55,284 nt of DNA from assembly GCA_029881495.1 (NCBI GenBank), contig JAOUMJ010000019.1:1-55284 (forward strand), in the 5' to 3' direction. Positions 13,184 to 16,856 of this stretch are shown here, one piece after another. How positions within the stretch are numbered: position 1 is the stretch's first letter; every line of letters begins with the position of its first letter. The position numbers and the translations under genes are program-made. Source of the DNA: Nitrospinota bacterium. Its GTDB lineage: Bacteria; Nitrospinota_A; UBA7883; JACRGQ01. The notes below the pieces were generated by a model that did no database searches, was not told where the DNA came from, and saw nothing but the letters and a program-made list of their open reading frames with translations.

Positions 13184-13330
13184 GGTGGCGTAGACTTTAG
13201 TCTGCGCGCGTCCGTTAGGACGCGATTCCCACTCTTCATCGATTTGCCAGAAGGGAATGCTTGCCCCTTTGGGGCAACCGCAGACTGAAGTCTACGCTAC
13301 CATAACCGGAGAGGCCCAAGTCTGTGCTAC
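13184..13330. repeat. Inverted pair of REP-like elements with hairpins, convergent intergenic region
   Basis: A forward unit (13184-13206, core GTAGACTTTAGTCTGC) and a reversed unit (13279-13301, core GCAGACTGAAGTCTAC followed by CTACC) face each other. They flank a perfect hairpin, CGCGTCC-GTTA-GGACGCG (13207-13224), and TTGCCCCTTTGGGGCAA (13261-13277). A third, degenerate unit lies at about 13319-13330. These match the arrays around the transposase at 15.7-16.8 kb and form a REPIN-like pair between converging genes. Nothing else is seen in this 223-base gap. Confidence 0.8.
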
Positions 13331-13370
13331 TGGATTAGAGATTGCCGTGCTACAAGAAGAAGAGGAAACA

Positions 13371-15676: not shown

Positions 15677-15873
15677 GCTCTCCCTCTTCCCGGTAGCATA
15701 GACTTTAGTCTGCGTTCGCCCGGTAGCGTAGACTTTAGTCTGCGTTCGCCCGGTAGCGTAGACTTTAGTCTGCGTTCGCCCGGTAGCGCAGACTTTAGTC
15801 TGCGTTCGCCCGGTAGCGTAGACTTTTGTCTGCGTTTGCCCCGCAGGGGCAACCATCCTGAAAATACAAACAA
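15677..15873 (+). repeat. Left REP array, copy 1: five tandem 30-bp units plus end hairpin
   Basis: Five head-to-tail units start at 15691, 15721, 15751, 15781 and 15811, with an exact 30-base period. Each carries the tetranucleotide GTAG followed by an imperfect palindrome with core GTAGACTTTAGTCTGC. The block is closed by the hairpin TTGCCCCGCAGGGGCAA (15836-15852) and a tail reading CCATCCTGAAAATACAAACA. GTAG in front of a hairpin is the recognition pattern of REP elements used by RAYT transposases; such a gene lies 150 bases away. Confidence 0.9.
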
Positions 15874-15891
15874 CAACTGCAAGACTCAAGT

Positions 15892-16000
15892 CTCGCTCCC
15901 CCTTTCCCGGTAGCGCAGACTTTAGTCTGCGTTCGCCCGGTAGCGTAGACTTTAGTCTGCGTTTGCCCCGCAGGGGCAACCATCCTGAAAATACAAACAA
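15892..16000 (+). repeat. Left REP array, copy 2: two units plus the same end hairpin and tail
   Basis: Two units (15908-15937 and 15938-15967) are followed by the same hairpin (15963-15979) and the same tail as copy 1. The sequence before the units (CGCTCCCCCTTTCCC) also matches that before copy 1. The whole cassette has therefore been duplicated and differs mainly in unit number (two versus five), as unequal recombination or slippage would produce. Confidence 0.88.
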
Positions 16001-16018
16001 GAGCTAGAATACTCAGGT

Positions 16019-16540
16019 TTACTTTTCCACAACTTCCTGTATCTCCAATAACCAGGGATAATCATCGGGCTTTTCCGCCAAGCCTCCCTTAACAGGGTTG
16101 TTCCTGATATATAAACATTTTTCCGCCAACTCTTTTTCGTCCCTGATGATCCTGTCAAACGATTCCGCTTGCCATATTGAGCGTTTCAAGCGTAGCGATG
16201 AATTGATTTTCCTTGCGGATTTTCCTTTTATCATTTTCAATATTTCTGAAAGTGAATAATAAACATCATTATATTTTTTAAGCGGCTTAATAATAATATG
16301 AGCATGATCATGCATCACAACCGCGCTCGACAAGTCGTAATACTTTTTATGATATTCCAAGATCACCCCGATAACTGCGTCTCTTGCCGATCCATCAAGT
16401 TGAATACCCTCCTTTGCGCGAAAGGTAATAAAATATAGCGATTCACCAATCTGCCAGTGAGGGAGATTTCGTCTGGCAATATGTAATTCGTCATTTTTTA
16501 TCTCTTTTAACGGCTTCACAAGGTTATAAATAACATACAT
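16019..16540 (-). CDS. REP-associated tyrosine transposase (RAYT, IS200-like Y1 family)
   Basis: The 173-residue protein carries the Y1 transposase signature: LPHWQIGESLYFITFRAKEG (first strand), the HUH metal site HDHAHIIIKP, WQAESFDRIIRDEKEL, and YIRNNPVKGGL near the C-terminus, where RAYTs have their conserved NPV segment. RAYTs are single-copy, domesticated relatives of IS200 transposases that cut and join DNA at REP hairpins. This one lies exactly between two oppositely oriented REP arrays, so it is very likely the enzyme for them. No second gene and no insertion-sequence ends are seen. The start at 16540 has no clear ribosome binding site. The frame is intact. Confidence 0.92.
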   Translation of the reverse strand: MYVIYNLVKPLKEIKNDELHIARRNLPHWQIGESLYFITFRAKEGIQLDGSARDAVIGVILEYHKKYYDLSSAVVMHDHAHIIIKPLKKYNDVYYSLSEILKMIKGKSARKINSSLRLKRSIWQAESFDRIIRDEKELAEKCLYIRNNPVKGGLAEKPDDYPWLLEIQEVVEK

Positions 16541-16590
16541 TATTGAAACGATAAAGTTTTATCTAAAGCGGATCCCGAGATGGAAGAATG

Positions 16591-16818
16591 TTGCCCCTTC
16601 GGGGCAATCGCAGACTGAAGTCTGCGCTACCGAACAAACGCAGACTGAAGTCTACGCTACCGAACAAACGCAGACTAAAGTCTACGCTACCGGACAAACG
16701 CAGACTGAAGTCTGCGCTACCGGACAAACGCAGACTGAAGTCTGCGCTACCGAACAAACGCAGACTGAAGTCTACGCTATCGAACAAACGCAGACTGAAG
16801 TCTGCTCTACCAAAAAAA
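16591..16818 (-). repeat. Right REP array: seven tandem 30-bp units in opposite orientation
   Basis: Units start at 16609, 16639, 16669, 16699, 16729, 16759 and 16789 (exact 30-base period). Read on the plus strand they have core GCAGACTGAAGTCTGC, then CTAC, the complement of GTAG. The hairpin TTGCCCCTTCGGGGCAA (16591-16607) caps the transposase-proximal end, as in the left arrays. The spacer between units is CGAACAAA or CGGACAAA, unlike the left side (CGTTCGCC), so the two arrays expanded separately. The last unit decays into an A-rich stretch. Confidence 0.9.
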
Positions 16819-16823
16819 AGAAT

Positions 16824-16856
16824 AAAAAAAGGCCGCCCCCTTGGAAGGGGGCGGCC
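16824..16856 (-). terminator. Rho-independent terminator of the large lipoprotein gene
   Basis: Perfect inverted repeat GGCCGCCCCCTT/AAGGGGGCGGCC (16831-16856) with a 2-base centre. On the minus strand it is followed by a run of seven T. It lies 36 bases beyond the stop codon of the lipoprotein gene and separates that gene from the REP array. Confidence 0.92.

Follow-up and report, generated by a model that had tools for sequence, protein, structure and literature searches.

A RAYT gene between oppositely oriented repeat arrays

We analysed a stretch of 55,284 nucleotides from a Nitrospinota bacterium (GenBank assembly GCA_029881495.1, contig JAOUMJ010000019.1; referred to as the window), in which a minus-strand gene encoding a REP-associated tyrosine transposase (RAYT), a domesticated enzyme of 173 amino acids (positions 16019–16540), is flanked by repetitive extragenic palindromic (REP) units, with five plus two plus-strand units to its left and seven in inverted orientation, on the minus strand, to its right. 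The initial annotation had placed an intact transposase gene between these arrays, which is confirmed by the presence of the HUH motif (H79-A80-H81), of a catalytic-type tyrosine (Tyr144, within YIRNNPVK) and by an open reading frame free of internal stops. On the left, the first run (15692–15834) has units starting at 15692, 15722, 15752, 15782 and 15812, with a period of 30 bp and the spacer TTCGCCC, and the fifth unit is followed directly at its 3' side by a second hairpin on the same strand, TTGCCCC-GCA-GGGGCAA (15836–15852). Two more plus-strand units (15909–15961, starting at 15909 and 15939) precede another copy of the second hairpin (15963–15979, plus strand). The division of the left units into five and two is the result of a 127-bp tandem duplication, detected by Tandem Repeats Finder (TRF) at 15779–16018 in about 1.9 copies (15779–15905 and from 15906), with the last two units lying in its second copy; the duplicated block comprises two REP units, the second hairpin and non-REP DNA. 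On the right, the second hairpin lies behind the gene-proximal unit as TTGCCCC-GAA-GGGGCAA (16591–16607, minus strand), and the seven units (16609–16631, 16639–16661, 16669–16691, 16699–16721, 16729–16751, 16759–16781 and 16789–16811) form one minus-strand run from 16609 to 16811 with a period of 30 bp and the spacers TTTGTTC or TTTGTCC.

TRF assigned these arrays a period of 30 with 92–95% matches and zero indels, and the REP pattern matched 19 times in the window compared with 0 in dinucleotide shuffles. The exact 30-base period of the initial annotation thus applies inside individual runs and is broken by the gap that separates the five left units from the other two, and the GTAG it ascribed to every unit is found in 13 of the 14, the sixth right unit from the gene (16759–16781) having GATAG where the others have GGTAG. 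An interpretation of the arrays as coding repeats was dropped, as reading frames of the RLKSALP type follow from a 30-bp period being a multiple of three. There is no tRNA in the window with which the arrays could be associated.

The protein passes the NCBIfam model for REP-associated tyrosine transposases (NF047646, 87.1 bits with a cut-off of 80), fails the NCBIfam IS200 model (22.6 bits against a cut-off of 55) and also matches Pfam Y1_Tnp. While phmmer gave no match in the PDB at E 0.001, Foldseek with the AlphaFold model (mean pLDDT 85.5) returned as top PDB match 4er8, a structure of E. coli TnpA-REP in complex with a REP hairpin (E 4e-10), followed by IS200/IS605 enzymes. H81 does not vary in a family alignment of 17 members, and H79 and Tyr144 hardly do. 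The REP-associated Y1 sequence subgroup, the HUH motif, the catalytic tyrosine and the RAYT fold therefore all place the protein in the RAYT/TnpA-REP family. Two otherwise well-conserved positions deviate, with MPDH changed to MHDH and Trp138 to Leu, so that the activity of this particular RAYT is not assured. No other RAYT was matched in the genome, for which a completeness of 97% is given; a multi-copy or mobile gene-bearing unit, as expected for IS200/IS605, is not seen here, the gene being present in one copy and scoring under the IS200 cut-off. Elsewhere in the genome, a 142-amino-acid protein encoded upstream of a bactofilin-like gene (C8; L032:1435–1863) matches Y1_Tnp with 34.9 bits and has HFRSSPDHSP in place of an HUH motif; it may be a Y1 domain that has degenerated or been domesticated.

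REPtrons, i.e. tnpA-REP/RAYT genes with flanking REPs, are known from E. coli, Stenotrophomonas and Marinomonas (PMC8266576, PMC6006769). To place the locus among its relatives, we compared it with 80 related RAYT loci (81 with the window), found in metagenome-assembled genomes labelled with many phyla; a contig search with the single RAYT protein had returned no relatives, and the family alignment as query found them. An inward-facing REP on both sides within 300 bp is present at 58 of the 80 loci, 11 of which duplicate genomes of our class-wide search, making the sample not fully independent of that search. The inverted REP bracket is thus the rule, and relatives have other GTRG hairpins next to their own RAYTs, different RAYTs being accompanied by different hairpins. 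Together with the NF047646 and 4er8 matches and the copies of the repeat elsewhere in the genome (at least 46), these brackets leave little doubt that the locus is a REPtron, a single-copy RAYT bracketed by inward-facing cognate REPs, in agreement with the initial annotation.

Two further features lie nearby. An inverted REP pair at 13184 (plus strand) and 13279–13301 (minus strand), with a second hairpin on each partner and a degenerate minus-strand unit beside it at 13310–13331, spans 13184–13331; an inverted pair is the unit of REP doublets forming hairpins (REPINs) and bacterial interspersed mosaic elements (BIMEs), and one such pair is present here, the RAYT-flanking units being arranged head to tail. 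Between a gene for a 930-amino-acid lipoprotein-like product and the right array, a perfect GC-rich inverted repeat (16831–16856) is followed by a T run on the minus strand, which looks like an intrinsic terminator and would part the RAYT from the transcript of the lipoprotein-like gene.

The two-hairpin repeat and its genomic copies

The genome-wide count and map proposed in the initial annotation showed that the repeat is not restricted to the RAYT locus, which disposes of one half of the condition set there for refutation: at least 46 copies are distributed over eight contigs (C19, which is the window, C7, C44, C10, C11, C15, C5 and C1), and their intergenic position was checked at some loci. 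The copy number is low for a REP family and the copies are clustered, with arrays of 30–31-bp period also found away from the RAYT on C44 and C11; a class-wide search found this REP sequence almost exclusively in this genome. On the GTAG strand, stem wobbles are G.T rather than A.C (28 vs 2 in all copies, 14 vs 2 in distinct copies), counts that overstate independence because the copies share ancestry. The bias is consistent with the GTAG strand being the one that folds; in other genomes it is weak (11 vs 3), and the lead in the control overlapped the real one.

REP copies outside the arrays consist of GTAG and hairpin 1, followed after about 1 nt by hairpin 2, which takes the forms TTGCCCC-GNA-GGGGCAA, TTGCTCC-GAA-GGAGCAA, TGCGTCC-GNA-GGACGCA and others. 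A genome search for hairpin 2 found every match adjoining a REP (15/15 for the first two types and 6/6 for the third, 21/21 altogether), and in relatives most of the exact hairpin 2 matches fetched come after a REP or a degenerate REP. In an alignment of 24 elements, five of the seven hairpin 2 pairs have changed on both sides, 89% of cells are paired, and the structure as a whole scores above shuffled and slid controls. Among 70 REPs at RAYT loci of the Nitrospinota family, a hairpin abuts the 3' side in 39 and the 5' side, which served as control, in 2; outside the family, the count falls to 15 of 172 against 4 in the control, and several of these are apparently inverted REPs. The elementary REP here is thus a two-hairpin unit of about 41 nt, comprising GGTAG, the 8-bp hairpin 1 and a directly abutting hairpin 2, mostly with a GNA triloop. 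Array-internal units lack hairpin 2, which is kept only by the unit next to it; the C11 array ends with no more than a degenerate beginning of this hairpin. The GNA loop was considered as a sign of DNA rather than RNA folding, an argument we abandoned, since on the complementary strand the loop is UNCG, which is stable in RNA.

Several composite arrangements of these elements were observed. On C7 (68293–70371; L034:1794–3872), a 479-amino-acid TPR-repeat gene lies between two sets of three composite REPs that face inward, with a 99-bp tandem unit alternating two REP types; the bracket is RAYT-like, although the enclosed gene is not a RAYT. The start of C44 (L035:110–865) is a contig end made up of tandem blocks on a 153-bp scale, with REPs in both orientations and two hairpin 2 types, together with a run of six head-to-tail units at intervals of about 30 bp, and is probably an assembly break in repeats. 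At a related locus (G006, L096), four inverted REP pairs are repeated in tandem every 102 bp, reaching as far as 439 bp upstream of the RAYT, and the partners of each pair enclose two second hairpins that differ from each other.

Array junctions and the origin of the arrays

Units are more alike within arrays than between arrays (identity 0.932 vs 0.859, permutation p 0.0006), as are the spacers (0.884 vs 0.673), implying that expansion was local. The local growth proposed in the initial annotation is therefore supported; its attribution to the enzyme is not, as no positive evidence for the enzyme was found. In the left array, TTTGCCC, corresponding to the start of hairpin 2, is found in the two terminal units and TTCGCCC in the internal ones; CCC also occurs in the left flank 5' of GGTAG. 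Junctions ending in the 5' arm of hairpin 2 recur in head-to-tail arrangements of relatives, for example ATTGCC/GGTAG, ATCGGCC/T/GGTAG and ATCGGCC/TCTCTC/GGTGG (slashes mark the joints). The idea of a spacer fixed in all relatives was rejected, since head-to-tail spacers measure between 6 and 33 nt, most often 7.

Considering these junctions together with the anatomy of the locus, we favour, with a probability of roughly 0.6, a reading in which the locus is a REPtron with a two-hairpin REP whose arrays arose by tandem duplication and grew by slippage or unequal exchange. The RAYT would recognise the GTAG-bearing single strand and would in the past have spread the REP unit. Most probably, the arrays are secondary and stem from tandem duplication of the part containing GTAG and hairpin 1. 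One breakpoint would lie immediately before GGTAG and the other within the 5' arm of hairpin 2, the two sharing a CCC microhomology in the left array (CCC/GGTAG ... TTTGCCC/), and replication slippage or unequal exchange would later have extended and homogenised the arrays. Three observations argue for slippage or unequal exchange: the homogeneity within arrays; the 127-bp block, which carries non-REP DNA and so indicates that tandem duplication of such DNA does happen at this locus; and the between-unit spacers of the window, which contain none of the dinucleotides at which RAYTs are reported to cut, C/T and in one enzyme also C/A (PMC8266576).

Several results weigh against this interpretation. 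Spacers of 6–9 nt occur at 11 of 37 verified head-to-tail junctions (p 0.006 against uniform spacing over 3–33, a crude null, making the preference a moderate one), and a period of 30–31 bp is common to four arrays of this genome that differ in their spacers. As random slippage alone predicts no preferred unit length, both the period and the spacer clustering count on the other side. In addition, the CCC microhomology is restricted to the left array, and the genus search returned this genome alone, so that a single strain underlies the analysis.

The preferred spacer length could instead be due to the RAYT itself, which would cut immediately before GGTAG and again about 7 nt past the 3' end of hairpin 1 and would join single-stranded units before existing ones, thereby setting the 30-bp period. 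This is a possible but rather unlikely origin: the 6–9-nt spacer is preferred in independent arrays of different stem sequence and the longest arrays seen are those at the RAYT, whereas the spacers of relatives vary, arrays also occur away from the RAYT, the adjacent 127-bp duplication includes non-REP DNA and the published cut dinucleotides are missing from the window, with the proviso that the specificity of this RAYT may differ. The geometry of guide, hairpin, short spacer and cut recalls the right end of IS200/IS605, which we take as a lead only. A more elaborate version is doubtful, namely that hairpin 2 contains the 3' cut site of the RAYT, hidden or exposed by folding, that cutting frees GTAG and hairpin 1 for head-to-tail addition, and that the arrays would thereby record RAYT activity, with hairpin 2 capping growth.

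The position of the junctions within hairpin 2 also bears on breakage of that hairpin, in which a hairpin nuclease such as SbcCD would cut near its tip and microhomology-dependent end repair would duplicate GTAG and hairpin 1. Hairpin 2 is the stable, perfect one of the two, and several junctions end 6–7 nt into its side, near the tip of the 5' arm; yet remnants of hairpin 2 are recognisable in only about half of the short spacers, and we regard this route as improbable. We give very little credence to the proposal that the arrays are kept for an effect on gene expression or DNA topology, with the RAYT incidental. It would be in line with the left array lying upstream of lpxD, whose start is about 70 bp away, and with the REP arrays that bracket the TPR gene on C7 where no RAYT is present, but ten family genomes have no matched RAYT upstream of lpxD and differ in their upstream genes, so that no empty site is readable among them, and a left-side transcript in the lpxD sense would contain A.C mismatches where the GTAG strand has G.T wobbles.

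Relation to known systems and implications

The locus shares with known REPtrons (PMC8266576, PMC6006769) a single-copy Y1/HUH gene with inverted GTAG hairpins on its flanks, and with those of Marinomonas the concentration of REPs near the gene; it differs from them in having seven head-to-tail units per side, a second abutting hairpin and few REPs elsewhere in the genome. The enzyme fold and the guide tetranucleotide 5' of the hairpin are common to IS200/IS605, but there is no sign of an autonomous moving unit here, and the RAYT is single-copy. Among the 81 loci, the window is the most extreme in tandem copy number: the longest same-direction run (steps of 60 bp or less) is 3 at the other loci and 6 in the window by the automatic measure, which misses degenerate units, the run being 7 when read directly. 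At G002:C93:19122–19186, a tandem 15-bp repeat, GGTRGGTACACGCTT, has no hairpin and apparently consists of REP 5' ends only.

The initial annotation considered long head-to-tail arrays unusual; this is true of the loci surveyed, although there are precedents. In P. fluorescens SBW25, REPs occur in evenly spaced tandem arrays and REPINs in tandem clusters together with flanking sequence, and a second mechanism of formation was suggested by the authors (PMC3116915). Tandem REP arrays, and REPIN clusters beside RAYTs, are thus shared with SBW25, but its arrays (GI–GIII) have periods of 72 and 112 bp and its usual unit is an inverted pair, unlike the single REPs every 30 bp described here. GTAG clusters reiterated in tandem with flanking DNA and double palindromic terminal inverted repeats have been reported, as have two Pseudomonas RAYTs with degenerate GTAG-1 units joined to unrelated stem-loops (PMC3733652); in contrast to those cases, hairpin 2 is regular, covarying and next to an intact GTAG unit. 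Descriptions therefore exist of REPtrons, of tandem REP clusters and of REPs next to other stem-loops (PMC8266576, PMC6006769, PMC3116915, PMC3733652). What is unusual is the length and regularity of the arrays and the second hairpin on each free-standing repeat, and what is new is that free-standing REPs of this genome are two-hairpin units. A narrow literature search, combining the exact phrase 'REP-associated tyrosine transposase' with a word starting with Nitrospin, found no paper.

How REPs spread and cluster is an unsolved question. In the Nitrospinota family, many RAYT/REP pairs differing in their stems are available, together with a second hairpin that is rare at the RAYT loci sampled from other phyla, and there are short arrays with junctions legible base by base. 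Owing to these features, enzyme-driven growth and slippage are separable in this family by experiment and by unit counts in strains.
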